NCBI RefSeq assembly: GCF_008386315.1
Contig: NZ_CP043808.1
Span: 186,001 to 250,000, forward strand
DNA from: Serinicoccus marinus DSM 15273
GTDB taxonomy: Bacteria > Actinomycetota > Actinomycetes > Actinomycetales > Dermatophilaceae
Reading direction: 5' to 3'
DNA: 64,000 bases
Positions 7,667 through 60,138 of this stretch are shown in pieces. Under the pieces are notes generated by a model, which did not search any database, was not told where the DNA came from, and saw only the letters and a program-made list of their open reading frames with translations. Each line of letters begins with the position of its first letter. The first letter of the stretch is position 1. The position numbers and the translations under genes are program-made.

Positions 7667-8946
7667 ATGATCGACATCCGCGACCTGCGCGACGACCCCG
7701 ACCGTGTCCGCACCAGCCAGCAGGCTCGGGGCGAGGACTCGTCCGTGGTGGACCAGGTGCTGTCCGCGGACGAGACGCACCGCCGGGCGCTCGCCGAGTT
7801 CGAGACCGCCCGCGCCGAGCAGAAGGCCTTCGGCAAGAAGGTCGCGCAGGCCCAGGGCGAGGAGAAGCAGTCGCTGCTGGCGCAGGTCAAGGACCTGGCC
7901 GCCCGGGTGAAGTCGCTGGACGCGCAGGCGCAGGAGGCGGCCACCGCGCGCGAGGAGGGTATGCGCCGCATCGGCAACGTCGTCATGGACGGGGTGCCCG
8001 TCGGTGGCGAGGACGACTTCGTCACGCTCGAGGAGGTCGGCACCCCACGCGACTTCGCGGCCGAGGGCTTCGAGCCCCGCGACCACCTCGCGCTCGGCGA
8101 GGCCCTCGGGGCCATCGACATGGCCCGGGGGGCGAAGGTCTCCGGTGCCCGCTTCTACTACCTGCTCGGTGACGGAGCCCGGCTCGAGCAGGCGCTCATG
8201 GGGCTGGCCCAGCAGATGGCGCAGGAGGAGGGCTTCGTCCCGGCGATCGTCCCCAACCTCGTCCGTCCGGAGACGATGGCCGGCGCGGGCTTCCTCGACG
8301 CCCACGCCGACGAGGTCTACCGCCTCGAGGCCGACGACCTCTACCTCATCGGCACCTCGGAGGTGGCGCTCGCCGGGCTGCACGCCGACGAGATCCTCGA
8401 CCTCTCCGACGGACCGCTGCGGTATGCCGCGACCTCCACCTGCTACCGCCGCGAGGCCGGGTCCTACGGCAAGGACACCAAGGGCATCTTCCGGTGCACC
8501 AGTTCACCAAGACCGAGATGTTCGTCTACTGCCGGGTCGAGGACGCCGTCGCCGAGCACGAGAACCTGCTCTGGATCGAGCGGCGCCTGCTGGACGCCCT
8601 CGAGCTGCCCTACCGGGTCATCGACGTCGCCGCGGGCGACCTCGGCGGTCCGGCGGCCCGTAAGTTCGACTGCGAGGCCTGGGTGCCGACGCAGGGGAAG
8701 TACCGCGAGCTGACCTCGACCTCCAACTGCACGACCTTCCAGGCCCGGCGCCTCGGCATACGGGAGCGAGACCCGCACGGCTCGGGCACCCGCGCCGTCG
8801 CCACCCTCAACGGCACGGTCGCCACGAGCACCCGGCCGATCGTCGCGCTGCTGGAGAACCACCAGCAGGCCGACGGCTCGGTCCGCGTCCCCGCGGCGCT
8901 GCAGCCCTTCCTCGGCGGCCAGGAGGTCCTCACCCCGGCTGGCTGA
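7667..8946 (+). CDS. serS: Seryl-tRNA synthetase, reading frame broken by a 1-base deletion
   Basis: SerRS charges tRNA-Ser. The N-terminal coiled-coil arm ([22 protein letters not shown] and onwards) and the class II motifs ([62 protein letters not shown]) are all present, but the frame changes near 8490. The sequence reads GGCATCTTCCGGTGCACCAG where the family needs CGG GTG CAC ([14 protein letters not shown]), so one G is missing. Restoring it gives one protein of normal length (about 426 residues). Loss of an essential enzyme is implausible, so a sequencing error is likely. TAGGCT at 7654-7659 lies 7 nt before the ATG. Confidence 0.93.
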
Positions 8947-11283: not shown

Positions 11284-12168
11284 GTGCTGGAACTCGACAG
11301 CCTGACCCGGGCCTACGGCGACCACCTCGCCGTGGACGAGGTCAGCTTCACCGTGCCGCAGGGCCGCATGGTCGGCTTCGTCGGCGGCAACGGCGCCGGC
11401 AAGACGACGACGATGCGCATGGTCATGGGCGTGCTTGCCCCCAGCGCCGGTCAGGTGCGGTGGGACGGCTCCCCGCTGACCCGGGAGGACCGGGTGCGCT
11501 TCGGCTACATGCCCGAGGAGCGTGGCCTCTACCCCAAGCAGCCGGTCCTCGCCCAGCTCACCTACCTCGGGCAGCTGCACGGCATGAGCGCCGACCAGGC
11601 GCGCGACCGCTCGCAGGACCTGCTCACCCGCTTCGGCCTGGGCGAGCGGCTGAAGAGCAAGGTGGAGGAGCTCTCGCTCGGCAACCAGCAGCGGGCGCAG
11701 ATCATCGCCTCGGTCCTCGGCGACCCCAAGCTGCTCGTGCTCGACGAGCCCTTCAGCGGGCTCGACCCGGCCGCGGTCGACCAGATGAGCGAGCTGCTGC
11801 GCGAGCACACGTCCTCCGGCGTGCCCGTGCTCTTCTCCTCCCACCAGCTCGACCTCGTGGACCGGCTCTGCGACTCCATCGTCGTGCTGCACGGCGGCCG
11901 GGTGGTCGCCGAGGGCAGCTCGGAGCAGCTGCGTGCCAGCGCCCCGCTGCGCTACCGCCTCACCATGGCCGGGGACACCGGCTGGGTGCGGGGTATGCCC
12001 GGTGTCGAGGTCATCGACCTCGACGGGCCGAGCGTGCTGGTCCAGCCGCAGGACGAGCAGGTGGCTGAGCGGCTGCTCGCCGATGCCGTGGGCCGCGGCA
12101 CCGTCCGCGAGTTCAGCCGCATCCGCCCGACCCTGTCCGAGATCTACCGAGAGGTGGCCGTCGCATGA
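11284..12168 (+). CDS. ABC transporter ATP-binding protein (NatA-like)
   Basis: This 294-residue ATPase shows Walker A GGNGAGKTTTMRMVMG, Q-loop and YMPEERGLYPKQPV, signature LSLGNQQRAQIIAS (a variant of LSGGQ), Walker B LLVLDEPFSGLDP and the switch His in LFSSHQLD. The C-terminal DUF4162-like extension is typical of NatA-type exporters. The GTG start at 11284 follows a 134-bp gap with TAGCGT near 11219. It forms a pair with the overlapping permease gene. The substrate is unknown; sodium or small-molecule export is the usual annotation for this type. Confidence 0.92.
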   Translation: MLELDSLTRAYGDHLAVDEVSFTVPQGRMVGFVGGNGAGKTTTMRMVMGVLAPSAGQVRWDGSPLTREDRVRFGYMPEERGLYPKQPVLAQLTYLGQLHGMSADQARDRSQDLLTRFGLGERLKSKVEELSLGNQQRAQIIASVLGDPKLLVLDEPFSGLDPAAVDQMSELLREHTSSGVPVLFSSHQLDLVDRLCDSIVVLHGGRVVAEGSSEQLRASAPLRYRLTMAGDTGWVRGMPGVEVIDLDGPSVLVQPQDEQVAERLLADAVGRGTVREFSRIRPTLSEIYREVAVA

Positions 12169-13349
12169 GCACCACGACCGCACCCTGGATCCTCGTCGCC
12201 GCACGGGAGATCAGGGTCAAGCTGACCGACAAGAACTTCCTCATCGGCACCGGCCTCACGCTCGTGCTGCTGCTCGCGGCGATGTTCGTGCCCGCGCTCA
12301 TCGGCGGAGGCTCCGCCTCCTACGACGTCGCGGTGACCGACGACGCGGCCTCCGGTGTCGTCGCCCAGGCAGAGCAGTCGCTGCAGGCCACCGACGAGGA
12401 GGCCGAGATCACCCTGGTCGAGGTGGCAGACCGCGCCGCCGCGGAGACCACCGTGCAGGAGGGCGACGCCGACGCGGCACTGGTCGGCGAGCCCGGAGCC
12501 TGGGAGCTGCTGCACGAGGGCGGCGCGCCGACACAGCTCGACGGCGCGCTGACCGAGGCGGTCCGCACCACGGCCCTGGCGACCAATGCCGAGGCGGCCG
12601 GCACCTCGGTGGCCGACCTGACCTCCGGCAGCGAGCTCGCCCAGGTCGACCTCGCGGAGGAGGACGAGGGGGCGATGAGCGGCCCGCTCGCCTACATCCT
12701 CGGCTTCGCCTTCGCCATGCTGTTCTACTTCGCCGCCCTGATGTTCGGCATGCAGATCGCCAACAGCGTCGTGGAGGAGAAGCAGTCTCGGATCATCGAG
12801 ATCCTCGCGGCCAAGATCCCGACGCGCCAGCTGCTCATGGGCAAGGTGCTGGGCAACACGGTGCTGGCCTTCGGGCAGCTTGCGCTCATCACCGCCGTCA
12901 GCCTCGTCGGGCTGACCTTCGTCGACCTCGACGTCGCGCTGCCCGGACTCACCCAGGCCATCCTGTGGTACCTCCCGTTCTTCCTCGTCGGCTTTCTCGC
13001 GCTGGCCTGCGTCTGGGCGGCGGCCGGTGCGCTGGCGTCGCGGACCGAGGACTTGCAGCAGACGACGATGCCGCTGACGATGGTGCTCGTCGTGCTCTTC
13101 ATCGTCGGGATCAACCTGGACGGGCGTTGGCAGCAGATCTTCTCCTTCGTCCCGGTCGCCTCGACCTTCGTCATGCCGGTCCGGATCATCGAGGGCGACA
13201 CCGCGCTGTGGGAGCCGGCCCTCGCGCTGCTCCTGGCCCTCGCCTTCTGCGGGGTGACCATCGCGCTGGGGGCGCGGCTCTACGAGCGGGCGCTGCTGCA
13301 CACCTCCGGCAGCCTGTCGTGGCGCAAGGCGATGTCGCTCCAGGACTGA
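12165..13349 (+). CDS. ABC-2 type permease (NatB-like)
   Basis: This 394-residue permease has an N-terminal transmembrane helix (FLIGTGLTLVLLLAAMFVPALI), a large extracytoplasmic acidic domain of about 130 residues, and a C-terminal bundle with AYILGFAFAMLFYFAALMFGMQIANSVVEEKQSRIIEILAAKIP, the hallmark of NatB/YhaP-type ABC-2 permeases. The start overlaps the ATPase stop by 4 bases (ATGA). It is the last gene before the low-GC island, and the left 14-bp direct repeat begins 6 bp after its stop. Confidence 0.9.
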   Translation: MSTTTAPWILVAAREIRVKLTDKNFLIGTGLTLVLLLAAMFVPALIGGGSASYDVAVTDDAASGVVAQAEQSLQATDEEAEITLVEVADRAAAETTVQEGDADAALVGEPGAWELLHEGGAPTQLDGALTEAVRTTALATNAEAAGTSVADLTSGSELAQVDLAEEDEGAMSGPLAYILGFAFAMLFYFAALMFGMQIANSVVEEKQSRIIEILAAKIPTRQLLMGKVLGNTVLAFGQLALITAVSLVGLTFVDLDVALPGLTQAILWYLPFFLVGFLALACVWAAAGALASRTEDLQQTTMPLTMVLVVLFIVGINLDGRWQQIFSFVPVASTFVMPVRIIEGDTALWEPALALLLALAFCGVTIALGARLYERALLHTSGSLSWRKAMSLQD

Positions 13350-13354
13350 GGGCA

Positions 13355-13368
13355 TCGCTAGGCTGGAG
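13355..13368 (+). repeat. Left 14-bp direct repeat of low-GC island
   Basis: TCGCTAGGCTGGAG is identical to 15543-15556. The right copy contains TAGGCT, the -10 box of the HAD phosphatase gene. The left copy sits just after the ABC permease stop, where that promoter would lie if the intervening 2.2 kb were removed. This is the expected footprint of an insertion with target duplication or of site-specific integration. Confidence 0.75.
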
Positions 13369-13521
13369 ACGTCCCCGGGTGGCGGCGTGGTCAGCATGTA
13401 GAAGCGCCGAAGTGCTCCCTGAGCAGGGAAGACCTGGACTGGTCTGAAGTCCCAGGTCGCCCAGCAGGCAAGCCTCAGTCAGTGGAGGCGACGCCGTGGT
13501 CGTCGGGGTTGTCCGCTTCTA

Positions 13522-13790
13522 GTGATGATGTGCGCGGGGTCGAGCACGCGGGCGGTGGGAGGGCTGCGCCTGCCGGCGGAGCGGACTGATCTGACAGCGC
13601 AACTGTCGTCGCCGATGGCTCGCCGTCAGTTCGTGCCGGTCCAGGACCGACGCCGGGTCCTGGGCGACGTCGTGGTGATACTCCCCGACGGCGGGGGGAG
13701 GCGAGCGACAACATCCACATGCTGCGCCACCAGGGCGGTGTGCGGGGGGTGGTCGCCTTACCACCTACGGGGCGGGCCCTGAAGATCGCG
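13522..13790 (+). pseudogene. Decayed transposase fragment, probably IS1380-like N-terminus
   Basis: The translated stretch GGLRLPAERTDLTAQLSS...RRVLGDVVVILPDGG, and after a frameshift near 13690 SDNIHMLRHQGGVRGVVALPPTGRALK, follows the pattern of the N-terminal part of IS1380-family transposases. That pattern is a hydrophobic VL-D-AV-AL-ADGG box, then LR-Q--L-G-VAS--T-WR. There is no catalytic domain and no recognisable terminal inverted repeats. It is the only feature in the 553-bp gap 13350-13902. Family assignment rests on pattern memory, so it is tentative. Confidence 0.5.
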
Positions 13791-13857
13791 GGCCGCGTCG
13801 CGCACGGTCCTCGATGCCCCTGGCCCTGATAGAAGTCAAGATTCTGCAAAGTCTCCT

Positions 13858-13870
13858 TGAAAGACTTTCA
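13858..13870 (+). promoter_or_regulatory. Palindrome in promoter of the phospholipase-like gene
   Basis: TGAAAGACTTTCA is a perfect 13-bp palindrome (6-bp arms) ending at 13870. It overlaps a candidate -35 (TTTCAC, 13866-13871), with TAGTGT at 13890-13895 as the -10 and 7 nt to the ATG. It could bind a dimeric regulator. No cognate regulator is encoded in the island. Confidence 0.4.
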
Positions 13871-13902
13871 CCGCTCCTCACTCGCTGTCTAGTGTTCTAT
13901 AC

Positions 13903-14835
13903 ATGGGTAATCGAAACGGACACGCCGAAGGCACGCCAGGGGCAGCACGCCGATTCAAGGCATGGTCCCTATCCTCGGCTACTGCTCTTGGCCTAGCCTC
14001 CATCGTCGGGGCAGGGGCCGCTCTTCCTGCTGTTGCGTCCCCGAACTCAACGGCGACCAACACTTCAACCGAAACCGAGCGCACCGAGGCGGAGAAGCCT
14101 CAGAGCACGACCATCAAGGTTGCCGAAGGGGCCAGTGGAAGTCAGGTCGTCGTGCTGGACAGCGCGCGCTCCAAGATCTCACGGAAGCTGAATATTCCTG
14201 ACGGACACAGGCTGATCCCCGGTCGAGAAGACGGTGGCTATACACTCCTGAGTGGCGATGGCGAGAGCGTAGCCACTATCGCTGCTGGTGATGCCTATCT
14301 CGACGACGGTTCTCAGCTCAACTCTTCGACTGAACTTCGAGGCAACCACCTTGTTCAGACTTTCGACGTACAGGCTGAGGTCAGCGAGCGCATCTACGTT
14401 TTCGCGCCAGTCGAACGTACCGGTGTCCATGCATCGGCAGACGAGGAGTCCAATTCAGATATTATAGAACTTCTTGAGTCGGACAAGACGGGACCCGACT
14501 TCCAGCAGATGGCCGTTATCACCGTTCCATCGAGGTACGTCTACGACTTGAGTCACCCACAGAAAGGGCTCCACGACTGGTGCCCCAAGTCTCCCGATGG
14601 GTACTACAATGGTGTCAAGACAGTCTACTACTGGGGCCCTTGCGCGAGGCACGACTTGGCGTATGACGACGCCAATCGCAGAGTCCTGTGGGCAGACGAC
14701 CTACTGGGGGATCACGTCGCCACGAACTGCAAGCACTATCTCGCGTCCTGGGACTGGAATCGCTACGCTTGCATCCAGCAAGGTACCGCAATGGAGGCAG
14801 TCGTTACTGGCTTGACGTACTATGAGTTGGTCTAG
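13903..14835 (+). CDS. Secreted phospholipase A2-like protein
   Basis: This 310-residue protein has a long signal peptide (residues about 17-46, SATALGLASIVGAGAALPAVAS). A Thr/Glu-rich spacer and a region of about 120 residues of unknown type follow (residues 70-190). The C-terminal domain (about 215-310) carries WGPCARHDLAYDDANRR: His250-Asp251 match the catalytic His and Ca-binding Asp of prokaryotic phospholipase A2 (PF09056). ADDLLGDHVATNCKHY resembles the following Asp-containing helix. Cys227, 247, 276 and 290 could form two disulfides. GC content is visibly lower than in the flanks. The 3' end overlaps the next gene by 14 bp. Activity is inferred, not shown. Confidence 0.72.
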   Translation: MGNRNGHAEGTPGAARRFKAWSLSSATALGLASIVGAGAALPAVASPNSTATNTSTETERTEAEKPQSTTIKVAEGASGSQVVVLDSARSKISRKLNIPDGHRLIPGREDGGYTLLSGDGESVATIAAGDAYLDDGSQLNSSTELRGNHLVQTFDVQAEVSERIYVFAPVERTGVHASADEESNSDIIELLESDKTGPDFQQMAVITVPSRYVYDLSHPQKGLHDWCPKSPDGYYNGVKTVYYWGPCARHDLAYDDANRRVLWADDLLGDHVATNCKHYLASWDWNRYACIQQGTAMEAVVTGLTYYELV

Positions 14836-15382
14836 GGCTGAACCTAGGCGCAGCGATTTCAAAACACCTGGTCCCTCGTCGGTAAGTTCATTATTTTTCC
14901 GTACTTGGGCAGACGAGGCGAATGGCGAAGTATCACGGCGTGAACAGAAAGTGGGTAGCCAAGTGGAAACATCCGCTAGGGTGCACTCGGGATGGGTTCT
15001 TAGTTTCGCCATTCTAGCTGTGATTGGAACGGTTTGGTTCGCTCTCGAATCGTGGGAGGGGTCTCGGGCGGTAGCTGCTGGGCTGACGGCCGGAGGCTCC
15101 GCAGGTCTCTTGGTCGTCGGAGGTTCCCTGCCCAGGCAAAACCTTTGGTGGGCGCCGTCCGTATTGGCCTTCGGAGTAACGGCCCAGTGGGTGCATATTC
15201 TCTACTCCAAGATTGCCGAGAGCGCATCCCCAGACTCAACACTAGGTGGCTCAGGAACAGATCTTCTGGTCCTGGGTTTTGCGGCTATGTGGATAGCCGG
15301 CCTGGTATTGAGCGTTATTTACTACTTCAGAAAAGTGCGCCTTCGTGATGAACCGGAGGGCAAGCGATCTCTGGCACCTTGA
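14822..15382 (+). CDS. Small 4-TM membrane protein, possible partner/immunity protein
   Basis: This protein has up to 186 residues and no recognised family. It has four hydrophobic segments: WVLSFAILAVIGTVWFAL, AVAAGLTAGGSAGLLVVGG, WWAPSVLAFGVTAQWVHILY and LLVLGFAAMWIAGLVLSVIYYF. The ATG at 14822 overlaps the phospholipase-like gene but has no clear ribosome site. In-frame GTG codons at 14951 and 14963, just before the first helix, are alternatives giving about 140 residues. Base composition is low-GC like its upstream partner. Close coupling to a secreted enzyme suggests transport, anchoring or self-protection, which is inference only. Confidence 0.6.
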   Translation: MSWSRAEPRRSDFKTPGPSSVSSLFFRTWADEANGEVSRREQKVGSQVETSARVHSGWVLSFAILAVIGTVWFALESWEGSRAVAAGLTAGGSAGLLVVGGSLPRQNLWWAPSVLAFGVTAQWVHILYSKIAESASPDSTLGGSGTDLLVLGFAAMWIAGLVLSVIYYFRKVRLRDEPEGKRSLAP

Positions 15383-15542
15383 TAATGAGATCGTGGAGCA
15401 GGGTACCGTCCGGTGGTGTCCCAGGGTGATTGGCAAGAGACGGGCCCGCGTGATTGAGCCGATGGATGTTGTCCACTGGATCGTCTCGTGATTGCCCAGG
15501 GACTTGCTGCCGGCGGTGGGGCAGGACTGTGACGGGTCACCC

Positions 15543-15556
15543 TCGCTAGGCTGGAG
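15543..15556 (+). repeat. Right 14-bp direct repeat of low-GC island; contains HAD gene -10 box
   Basis: TCGCTAGGCTGGAG is identical to 13355-13368. TAGGCT at 15547-15552 lies 6 nt before the GTG start at 15559, so this copy is the functional promoter. The 176-bp stretch 15383-15558 before it holds no recognised gene. It contains GTGACGGGTCAC, a 12-bp near-palindrome, beside the repeat. Confidence 0.75.
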
Positions 15557-15558
15557 GG

Positions 15559-16394
15559 GTGACTGCCTCCGCCGAACCGGCCGCCGCCCCGCTGCTCGTC
15601 GCGCTGGACGTCGACGGGACGATCGTCAACCACGACGGACACCTGTCGCCGCGCGTGCGGGAGGCGGTAGCGGCGCTGGACGACCTGCCGCACGTGACCG
15701 TCGTGATCGCCACCGGGCGGTCGGTCATCTCGACCCTGCCGTCATGGAGGCGCTGCGGCTCATGACGCCGGAGCGCCCCGCGGTCTGCTCCAACGGCGCG
15801 GTGACCGTGGCGGTCGCACCGGAGCAGGCCGAGGGCTTCGAGATCGTCGACCAGGTCACCTTCGACCCGGCCCCGGCCATCGCCCTCATCCGCACCCACC
15901 TGCCCACCGCGCTGATCGCGGTCGAGGAGATCGGGGTGGGCTTCAAGGTGAGCACCCCCTTCCCCGAGGGCGAGCTGTGGGGCGAGGAGATCGAGGTGCC
16001 GGTGGAGGAGCTCACCGCGCGGCCCGCGACCCGGGTGACCTTCCGCGAGCCCAACCTGACCACGGAGGACTTCACCTCCCTCGTGGAGCGGATCGGGCTG
16101 CATGGGGTGTCCTACGCCGTCGGCTACAGCGCCTGGCTCGACCTCGCGCCCGAGGGCGTGTCCAAGGCCTCCGCGCTGGAGCAGGTGCGGCGCCGCCTCG
16201 AGGTCGAGCCGCACCGCACCGTCGCGGTCGGGGACCAGCGCAACGACCTCGAGATGCTGCACTGGGCGGCTGTCGGGTATGCCATGGGCCAGGCGCCCGA
16301 GGAGGTCCTGCGGATCGCCGACCGCACCACCGGCGCCGTGGAGGAGGACGGCCTCGCCGACGCGCTCGCCGAGGTGCTGGACGAGCTCGCGTGA
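15559..16394 (+). CDS. HAD-superfamily (Cof-type) phosphatase, 1-base deletion
   Basis: The N-terminus has LLVALDVDGTIVNHDGHLSPRV (HAD motif I, Asp nucleophile in DVDGT) and VVIATGRS (motif II). After a frame change near 15740 the rest reads VMEALRLM...VCSNGAV, a cap region, then VSKASALEQV and VAVGDQRNDLEMLHWA (motif IV). The sequence ACCCTGCCGTCATGG needs one more G (CCG GTC ATG) to give TLPVMEALRL. The corrected protein has about 278 residues, normal for Cof-type sugar-phosphate or nucleotide phosphatases. The stop overlaps the next gene by 4 bases. Confidence 0.88.
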
Positions 16395-17195
16395 GCGATC
16401 CGCTCCTCATCACCTCGCCGGCCAACGCGCGGCTCAAGGCGGTTGCCGGGCTGCGGCGGCGCCGGGTGCGGGACCGGGAGCGGCGCACCCTCGTCGAGGG
16501 TCACGACGAGCTGAGCCTGGCGCTGGACGCGGGCGTGGTGCCGGAGCTGCTCCTGCTGTCCCCCGAGCTCGCACCCCCCGGTGCGGTGGCGGCGCTGACC
16601 GACCGGGTGGCCGGCGGGCCGACCGAGGTCGTCCACGCCACGCGCGCCGCCTTCGAGAAGACGGCCTACCGCGAGGGCCCTGACGGGGTGCTCGCGGTCG
16701 TGCAGGCCGCGTGGGGCGGACCCGAGGACCTGACGCTGCCCCGGAGACGCGCTCGTGCTCGTCGGCGAGGGCATCGAGAAGCCCGGCAACCTCGGGGCCA
16801 TGCTGCGCACCGCTGACGCCGCCGGGGTGGACGCGGTCCTCGCGGCCGACCCGGTGACCGACTGGGGCAACCCCAACACCGTGCGCGCCTCCAAGGGCAC
16901 CGTCTTCTCGGTCCCGGTCGCCGCGGACGGGACCACGGCGACGCTGGACTGGCTGGAGGGCCACGGCATACCGGTCGTCGCGGCGACCCCGGAGGCCGAC
17001 CTGGCGCACACCGAGGTCGACTACCGCGGGCCGGTGGCGATCGCCGTGGGGACGGAGCAGACCGGTCTCACCGACGAGGTGCTGCGGCGCGCGGCATACC
17101 GGGTGCGAATCCCGATGGTGGGGCGCGCGAACTCGCTCAACGTCGCCACCTCCGCGGCGATCCTCGTCTACGAGGCGGTCCGGCAGCGGGGCTGA
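16391..17195 (+). CDS. SpoU/TrmH-family RNA 2'-O-methyltransferase, 1-base insertion
   Basis: The N-terminal substrate-binding domain (SDPLLITSPANARLKAVAGLRRRRVRDRERRTLVEGHDEL) is followed by the knotted SPOUT domain: LVGEGIEKPGNLGAMLRTADAAG, IAVGTEQTGLTDEVL and IPMVGRANSLNVATSAAILVYEA, the three SpoU motifs. It methylates a ribose in rRNA or tRNA using S-adenosylmethionine. The two halves lie in different frames. Removing one C from the CCCC run near 16740 gives LPGDALVLVGEG and a protein of about 267 residues. The GTG start overlaps the HAD stop (GTGA), so the two are co-transcribed. Confidence 0.9.
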
Positions 17196-17238
17196 GGCGA
17201 TGACAACCGGGGATCAGGCGTGTGCCACGATGAGGGTC

Positions 17239-17886
17239 ATGCGGATCGACCACGTGAGTTATGCGGCTGGACCGGAGGGACTGCAGGCCACGGCGGAGCG
17301 CCTGGCGGAGCAGCTCGGGGTCAGCCCGCACGACGGCGGGGTGCACCCGCGGTTCGGCACCCGCAACGTGGTCATCCCGCTCGCCGACGAGCGCTACGTC
17401 GAGGTCGTCGAGGTGCTCGACCACCCTGCCTCCGACAAGGCCCCCTTCGGGCAGGCCGTGCGTGCCCGCTCCGAGAACGGCGGCGGCTGGATGGCGTGGG
17501 TGGTCGCGGTCGAGGACCTCTCCGTGGTCGAGGAGCGGCTCGGTCGGTCGTCGGTGGAGGGGCACCGGCACACGCCGGAGGGCGTCGAGCTGCAGTGGCG
17601 TCAGATCGGGGTGCTCAACGTCATCGACCACGGCAACCGGCCGTTCTTCGTGCGCTGGGAGTCGGCGCCGGAGCACCACCCCTCCCGGCTGGAGGAGAGC
17701 ACGACCCGCCTGACCGGCCTGACCGTCGGCGGCGACGTGCCCGAGGTCCGCGACTGGCTCGGGCTCGCCGACGCGCCGCAGGGCGAGTTCGAGAGCGACA
17801 TCGAGTTCGGCTTCCTCGAGGACGACGACTGCCCGTGCCTCACCGAGGTCACCTTCTCCACACCGCGGGGCAGCGTCACCATCTGA
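17239..17886 (+). CDS. VOC-superfamily (glyoxalase-like) protein
   Basis: This 215-residue protein begins MRIDHVSYAAGPEGLQATAERLAEQLG, the opening of a glyoxalase-like domain (PF13468 type). It contains GGVHPRFGTRNVVIPLADERYVEVVEVLDHP and a second half with ALGRS-like repeats. No specific substrate can be named. An ATG at 17230 (MRVMRIDH...) is an alternative start. It ends 114 bp before the convergent copA, with a long hairpin between. Confidence 0.78.
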   Translation: MRIDHVSYAAGPEGLQATAERLAEQLGVSPHDGGVHPRFGTRNVVIPLADERYVEVVEVLDHPASDKAPFGQAVRARSENGGGWMAWVVAVEDLSVVEERLGRSSVEGHRHTPEGVELQWRQIGVLNVIDHGNRPFFVRWESAPEHHPSRLEESTTRLTGLTVGGDVPEVRDWLGLADAPQGEFESDIEFGFLEDDDCPCLTEVTFSTPRGSVTI

Positions 17887-58905: not shown

Positions 58906-59367
58906 TCAGCCTGTGGTTCCCTTCCGCTGCCGTAGGGTTCGGACCCTGATGAGTGAACCAAGAGCCGCACCGAAGGTACACCAGGTGGCGAAACTCCACG
59001 CCATGGCTATAACTAGTTCGGGGAAGATGGGTCGCATTGGAATGTCAGATGGGGGAATGACGCTGCCTTGCGTAGCTATTACCCCGCACGCAATGACCAA
59101 ACCCAATCCAGCCACTAAAGACCACAGGAAAGGTCCCGCTAGCCGCGTACTTGACATACCGACGATGCCGCACAACAAGGCACCTAGAGACAAACCGCCA
59201 GCCAGAGCAACCAAAGATGGGCGGCCATCCACGTTCGCCCATCTGTATAGGTACTCAGCCGCCCCTACGGCGACGATGACACTTAGGCCAAGGAAGACCT
59301 GCATCCCTGCACCCAGGCCGCGACCAGTTATCTGCTCTTGAGTGTCAGATCGAACGGTGGCGCTCAT
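58906..59367 (-). CDS. Small 4-TM membrane protein of second low-GC island
   Basis: This protein has about 153 residues and four hydrophobic segments: GMQVFLGLSVIVAVGAAEYLY, LVALAGGLSLGALLCGIVGM, FLWSLVAGLGLVIACGVIAT and ELVIAMAWSFATWCTFGAALGSLI. No family is recognised, and I see no clear sequence similarity to the 4-TM protein at 14822. ATG 59367 overlaps the upstream stop by 4 bases; GTG 59373 is an alternative. The organisation copies that of the first island: secreted protein, then overlapping 4-TM protein. Confidence 0.65.
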   Translation of the reverse strand: MSATVRSDTQEQITGRGLGAGMQVFLGLSVIVAVGAAEYLYRWANVDGRPSLVALAGGLSLGALLCGIVGMSSTRLAGPFLWSLVAGLGLVIACGVIATQGSVIPPSDIPMRPIFPELVIAMAWSFATWCTFGAALGSLIRVRTLRQRKGTTG

Positions 59368-59933
59368 TCGCACAACCCAACTCGATCGCTACTTCCATAT
59401 CGGTACAGCCCGCTGAGCGCGTAGTATTCACGTGAATCCCCACATGTGTAGGAGACGTTAATCCACTTCGTTCCGCCGGGATAGACGTAACCCGAGTCGT
59501 CATCTCTTGTGGGGTGGTAGGAACAACCGACCCACCTACACTCCTTTAAAGACATAGAAATGTCATTACGGTTACACGCAGGAGATAAGGTCTTGTAACC
59601 ACTAGCGGCAACATACTCTGTGTCAGGAGCGGAACTACCGCGCACCATTTGAGGATGTCCCGCCCACTCGGTGACGCGACACCCAGACGAAGTGTTCGCT
59701 GTGGTCGTGCTGACATCGTTTGTCCCCGTCAGCAGAGAAGTAGTCTCAATGCCGGTAAAGGTAACATACTCACCGATGTCTTCATCATAGACCTTCTCGG
59801 TCACTTCTTCGGTCGAGATTACCGTTTCGATGTTCTCCGTAGTATTGCCCTCCGCGGCCGACACCGCCGGCCCTGCGAGGCCTGACACTGCGAATAGCGG
59901 CAGCGCGATCACAACGCCCAATCGCCTGCTCAT
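59364..59933 (-). CDS. Cys-rich secreted protein of second low-GC island
   Basis: This 189-residue protein has a clear signal peptide (residues 1-26, LGVVIALPLFAVSGLAGPAVSA). A Thr/Glu-rich spacer follows (residues 27-78), then a C-terminal domain with six Cys (SSGCRV, SPACNR, KECRWVGC, SYTCGD, GLCE), enough for three disulfides. No family is recognised. ATG 59933 is chosen because AAGGGG lies 6 nt upstream; an in-frame ATG at 59969 would bury the signal peptide. Low GC content and rare codons (AGA, ATA, TTA) mark it off from its neighbours. Confidence 0.7.
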   Translation of the reverse strand: MSRRLGVVIALPLFAVSGLAGPAVSAAEGNTTENIETVISTEEVTEKVYDEDIGEYVTFTGIETTSLLTGTNDVSTTTANTSSGCRVTEWAGHPQMVRGSSAPDTEYVAASGYKTLSPACNRNDISMSLKECRWVGCSYHPTRDDDSGYVYPGGTKWINVSYTCGDSREYYALSGLYRYGSSDRVGLCE

Positions 59934-60138
59934 GGCATCCCCTTGCACTTCGGTAAATAGCGTACGCAAATCACGCTAACATCAGCATGAGCACCTCGCC
60001 AGTGCTCGCGTTACACCCCCTGAAAGTGCGCTCACCACGCCCGGTGTCAATCACGCCTTGGCTTGCGTCGACTTCGCCCGCTTAGATGAGTTGCAACTAG
60101 CTCGTGTCATGAGCCATCGGCTCGCCGTATTGTCCCTT

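Follow-up and report, generated by a model that had tools for sequence, protein, structure and literature searches.

We analysed a 64,000-nucleotide stretch of the Serinicoccus marinus DSM 15273 genome (here called the window) in which an ABC-2 type permease gene and a HAD phosphatase gene are separated by an island of low GC content. The island carries, from left to right, the decayed end of an insertion sequence (IS), a gene for a secreted phospholipase A2 (PLA2)-like protein, an overlapping gene for a small protein with several transmembrane (TM) segments, and a scrap of a second insertion sequence (Table 1). Two exact copies of the 14-bp sequence TCGCTAGGCTGGAG bracket these features, as an earlier note on this DNA had stated, and the two cargo genes that it had described are both present. 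Its decayed transposase is there in part: what survives is the 5' end of an IS1380-family element, and the three ORFs tested in it hit no Pfam family.

Table 1. Features of the island and its surroundings, in window positions
Feature	Position	Strand	Remarks
ABC-2 type permease gene, left neighbour	12165..13349	+	PF12698, E 7.4e-38; matched in 48 of 58 genomes, G000 counted
Left copy of TCGCTAGGCTGGAG	13355..13368	+	Orphaned promoter-like core; single-copy empty site in G026
CTAG in the left 14-mer	13358..13361	.	Site where relatives' IS1380-family copies sit; exact register with the IS remnant
Filler, 6 bp, between 14-mer and recognisable IS sequence	13369..13374	.	
Decayed IS1380-family 5' end	13375..13781	+	About 407 bp; terminal 13 bp unrecognisable
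Secreted PLA2-like protein, 310 aa	13903..14835	+	Signal peptide (by eye), long pre-domain, C-terminal CARHD phospholipase A2 domain
Small polytopic membrane protein, 186-aa ORF	14822..15382	+	Three hydropathy peaks, probably four TM; overlaps PLA2 gene by 14 nt; true start may be further in
IS110-family transposase leader fragment, 41 bp	15500..15540	-	93% to G011
Right copy of TCGCTAGGCTGGAG	15543..15556	+	-10 region of HAD gene (predicted)
Recombination tract, 159 bp	15543..15701	+	One mismatch (15669) to G026; ~84% in rest of HAD
HAD phosphatase gene, right neighbour	15559..16394	+	One-base frameshift near 15741, absent from four relatives compared

GC content is 72.9% over the window and 59.8% in the island, where it amounts to 69% in the first ~420 bp, which hold the IS remnant, and 57.5% between 13791 and 15540. 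The 1750-bp stretch starting at 13751 is the lowest among stretches sampled every 250 bp, which bears out the claim that the island lies below its flanks. It is also true that the GTATGC hexamer is missing from the island, a weak mark given that 5 of the 72 gaps between hexamers in the window span at least 2188 bp. CTAG sites cluster there, with 10 of the window's 25 lying within 13358-15549, including the one in each 14-mer. A search for known RNAs at the borders returned a single sub-threshold Rfam match.

By its length alone, a 14-bp repeat is unremarkable in this DNA. Exact direct repeats of 14 bp that lie 0.5-4 kb apart number 36 in the window, and first-order Markov simulations (n = 20) produced 4-16 such pairs each. 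The repeat was therefore judged against relatives, and it draws its significance from the empty site in one of them, G026. Frequent occurrence across the genome, which would have spoken against the earlier reading, is not what we found: there are three exact copies in 3,420,275 bases (3.42 Mb). The third copy (genome C1:2543132-2543151, minus strand; positions 1501-1520 of locus L003) belongs to a 20-bp identity with the left flank and sits immediately 5' of another gene's ATG; probably it reflects a shared promoter consensus. At the HAD gene itself, TAGGCT (or TACGCT) ends 6-7 bp 5' of the presumed GTG start in the window and in eight relatives, a position that suggests it is the -10 box.

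The comparison covered the 29 relatives with the best permease matches, whose loci were fetched with about 1.5 kb on each side. In 20 of the 29, the HAD gene lies directly 3' of the permease gene on the same strand, with its first aligned base 30-160 bp from the permease match; the remaining nine have no HAD gene at that place. In G026, a single uninterrupted copy of the 14-mer joins permease and HAD, and in its alignment with the window the left block stops at 13368 and the right block starts at 15543, the overlap being exactly the 14-mer. G007, the closest relative by permease (about 88% DNA identity over the aligned blocks), has a likewise uninterrupted junction with the slightly diverged sequence TCGCTACGCTGGCG. 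The uninterrupted permease-14-mer-HAD junction that the earlier note had proposed to look for thus exists, and the opposite outcome, in which relatives all carry the island, did not occur: none of those searched does. Among 58 genomes (G000 included), the cargo was matched only in G000 and weakly in G041; a PLA2 profile run over 186 genomes of the family found G000 and four weak matches only; and a DNA search with the island among the relatives returned only IS pieces and short matches. The single-copy junction in G026 and the uninterrupted one in G007 therefore identify the island as an insertion in this lineage, with exact borders against G026, the species being represented by one strain only.

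By itself, the 310-aa PLA2-like protein matches neither a Pfam family nor, above the cut-off, an NCBIfam family, and a limited-sensitivity search among 5.8 billion proteins found its own cluster only (four members on two contigs). Its C-terminus aligns with an Arthrobacter plasmid protein annotated as phospholipase A2 and, at 34% over 93 aa, with a Brevibacterium luteolum protein (L035, on the same contig as L165) that passes PF09056 (E 4.8e-8, 34 bits against a cut-off of 29.4). H250, D251, C227, C247, C276 and C290, which represent the His-Asp pair and disulphide cysteines expected of the family, are invariant in 20 aligned sequences. The domain aligns with PF09056 members and keeps their CxxHD motif, but the window protein differs in going unrecognised by Pfam alone, in its long pre-domain and in the absence of two cysteines that many members have. 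Inspection by eye showed the domain to be without one cysteine pair (one just past CARHD, one ahead of a later Asp), a pair that is jointly missing in several partner-bearing relatives and jointly present in others. With Tox-PLA2, as the accessible part of a 2012 survey presents it (PMC3482391), the protein shares a C-terminal PLA2 domain in a longer secreted protein and a CxxHxxxY motif; it differs in that no RHS or filamentous repeats were noted and in that a small multi-TM gene follows. A search by sequence for relatives of solved structure gave seven matches, all at chance level with E values of 0.58 or worse. The PLA2 domain had no match in phages, and in plasmids one, on the Arthrobacter plasmid. 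An odd palindrome, TGAAAGACTTTCA, was seen by eye 5' of the PLA2 gene (window 13858-13870) and is possibly an operator.

For the 186-aa membrane protein, we found one relative (P0002, 48% over 140 aa). Its position beside the PLA2 gene was compared with other PLA2 loci. The set comprised 47 loci, of which a PLA2-domain scan of genome contigs supplied 45 and the window and the Arthrobacter plasmid one each; a partner was defined as a small ORF with at least three predicted TM segments that starts between -40 and +150 bp from the PLA2 stop. Eighteen loci scored positive. Two of them were dropped, L168 because its ORF looked implausible by eye and L181 because it is of another type (221 aa with 5 TM), which leaves a small multi-TM ORF adjacent to or overlapping the PLA2 gene in 16 of 47. 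These represent eight actinobacterial genera (Alloscardovia, Enteractinococcus, Brevibacterium, Blastococcus, Corynebacterium, Nesterenkonia, Arthrobacter and the window's own genus), and they are not independent, as six are from Brevibacterium, three from Enteractinococcus and two, nearly identical, from Corynebacterium. Long ORFs of the same loci served as a control and were positive in 29 of 421 cases with the PLA2 ORFs included and in 18 of 401 without them; the corresponding Fisher P values for 16/47, 6.8e-7 and 9.6e-9, are both optimistic, because loci are related and the mechanically called control ORFs include non-genes. By this criterion the other 31 loci, including nearly all short PLA2s, are without a partner, and none was found beside three further short PLA2s (L189, L190 and L192), with L191 left out of the scoring. 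P0002 apart, the partners share 9-18% identity with the window's TM protein in alignment. One Enteractinococcus helveticum genome holds three PLA2 plus multi-TM loci (L151, L182 and L184).

Judged by this gene layout, the cargo is most likely a toxin, a membrane-attacking PLA2, together with a membrane immunity protein, and we regard the pair as a candidate cassette. A serious competitor, although we would bet against it, is that the TM protein confers no immunity and instead aids the export, folding or regulation of a nutritional phospholipase. Most short PLA2 ORFs of the scan are unpaired, so PLA2s of this family need not be paired, which agrees with such a helper role; the strong divergence of the partners, with size and place kept as in immunity proteins, and the triple occurrence of the pair in one Enteractinococcus genome agree better with toxin and immunity.

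The DNA to the right of the cargo bears on how it came to lie between two copies of its target. Between 15585 and 15697, the window is 99.1% identical to G026 and 88.5% to G007, and between 15760 and 16390 the order is reversed, with 83.7% to G026 and 89.9% to G007. The near-identical tract means that G026 holds nearly the same allele without the island. The same pattern would arise if the island had inserted in a G026-like donor species and been moved in by homologous transfer together with the adjacent 5' end of HAD, a history that we consider possible but less likely than not. It would explain why a single mismatch to G026 occurs in the 159 bp beside the island when the rest of HAD stands at ~84%, and why the left flank is not G026-like, but G026 itself is without the island, and the tract would look no different had the two lineages exchanged the empty allele, whichever way, before the insertion. 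The distances measured to 13 other genomes are compatible with transfer of the tract into or out of this lineage. Insertion in this lineage is the reading we prefer, with the proviso that the right copy lies inside the tract shared with G026, so that recombination may have altered the borders.

Some caution also applies to the genes around the island. Uncompensated one-base differences from four relatives are present at 15741 in HAD and near 16745 in an rRNA methyltransferase gene (net one base), and another was found at 8494 in serS against the three relatives aligned there. As serS is normally essential, these shifts are likely to be residual assembly indel errors, and gene decay by frameshift near the island should accordingly not be over-read. 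A gap at 17197 was rejected as a frameshift, being intergenic.

At the left border, 13375-13781 has 75-81% DNA identity to the 5' ends of two copies each in G004 and G010, of an element in G016 and of one elsewhere in the window's own genome; the G004 ORF matches NF033539 and PF13701, which mark an IS1380-family transposase. These elements start right after CTAG in seven of eight copies compared and after CTAA in the eighth, and the remnant in the island starts with IS position 14, which lies exactly 13 bp past the CTAG of the left 14-mer. The island is related to the IS1380 family through this decayed 5' end, and the copies in relatives sit at CTAG; it differs in having no transposase, no right end that we could find, a duplication of 14 bp and not 4 bp, and an unrecognisable terminal 13 bp. 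We found no paper joining the IS1380 family, CTAG and a target site.

Another possibility, which we consider rather unlikely, is that the founding event was the insertion of an IS1380-family element at the promoter CTAG with a 4-bp CTAG duplication, that the cargo and the IS110 scrap came later by nested insertion and deletion, and that the extra 10 bp of the repeat (TCG and GCTGGAG) match by coincidence or were copied in through conversion from an empty allele. The preference of the copies for CTAG, the exact register of the remnant with the left-copy CTAG, and the start of the 159-bp empty-allele-like tract exactly at the right copy are all as this history would have it. Yet only 5-6 of the 13 bases after the window's CTAG match the IS end (P = 0.007 for at most 6 at 80% identity; P = 0.11 for at least 6 in random 13-mers of the window), neither blastn of the island nor a more sensitive search of 13601-13960 revealed an IS1380 right end, and ten extra matches by chance would have a probability of ~1e-5 by a rough estimate. 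Each account thus has to accept a coincidence, the IS register if 14 bp were duplicated and the ten extra identical bases if an IS1380-family element inserted; rough odds favour the 14-bp duplication, with the IS1380-family insertion as a candidate beside it.

The right border is another fragment. Its 41 bp, in reverse orientation and with no transposase, correspond to a G011 stretch just upstream of an IS110-family transposase ORF, and a 21-bp core also occurs in the leaders of the G090, G146 and G013 copies. Insertion of an IS110 element at this border was rejected, since the matching stretch is internal to the leader; in the G090 copies, some 190 bp separate it from the outer end. Least probable by a wide distance is an integrative element whose recombinase, since lost, took the 14-mer as its attachment core. 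A core of 14 bp is plausible and the empty site holds one copy, but the five island ORFs scanned include no integrase or recombinase, the island ends in truncated IS fragments on both sides, and 12000-17500 contains no tRNA gene. The earlier note had offered cargo insertion with target duplication or site-specific integration; the former stands, given the doubled target seen against G026, and the latter was rejected as the main reading because the ORFs scanned yielded no recombinase and the IS ends are broken.

Taken together, the evidence makes it probable that a foreign fragment inserted with a 14-bp target duplication, carrying what is most likely a toxin and a membrane immunity protein from outside the genus. 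A single target copy in an empty site, as expected of such an event, is what G026 has. In this scenario, a 2.17-kb fragment composed of the IS1380-family 5' remnant, the low-GC PLA2/multi-TM operon and the IS110 leader scrap would have entered the -10 region of HAD in this lineage, leaving 14 bp of the site on both sides. The HAD gene would have retained a full -10 box at the right, and the left copy would have been orphaned beside the permease gene. The route may have been a staggered break that was filled in and sealed by end joining. That would agree with IS ends that are broken, with short fillers of 6 and 2 bp and with a lack of terminal inverted repeats, and the genome has a Ku gene, which makes end joining at a staggered break possible. 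No terminal inverted repeats linking both ends were found among the 25 longest of 43 inverted-repeat pairs. A transposase since lost could have done the same; the three IS-remnant ORFs and two cargo ORFs gave no Pfam match to one.

A second low-GC cassette is present in the window at 58906-59969 on the minus strand, where a gene for a secreted protein of ~200 aa without a family overlaps (ATGA) one for a 155-aa protein with about four TM segments. Its layout is that of the PLA2 pair, without sequence similarity, and a search for homology between the TM proteins of both cassettes found none. Of 57 relatives searched, G007 and G028 alone have the secreted protein, at 90-91%.

The insertion is of a common sort, and its interest is in showing cleanly how cargo can land in a promoter: with the -10 core regenerated, the downstream gene need not be silenced, if the predicted promoter activity is correct. 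The gene pair matters more. In the table of the 2012 survey, the Tox-PLA2 row shows '-' where a neighbouring row lists immunity proteins (PMC3482391), which we take to mean that none was assigned in that part of the survey. Judged by titles and the starts of abstracts, we found no paper on a membrane partner of bacterial PLA2, and in the accessible part of PMC12419801 our search term appears only in a reference entry. We propose, as a tentative idea held at less than even confidence, that the long secreted PLA2s of actinobacteria and their fast-diverging adjacent or overlapping multi-TM partners form an undescribed family of toxin/immunity cassettes that target membrane lipids and spread as mobile cargo. 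If so, the second cassette in the window would show the same layout in use with other effectors, and the recurring membrane neighbour of PLA2 would fill the place of the immunity partner left blank for Tox-PLA2.
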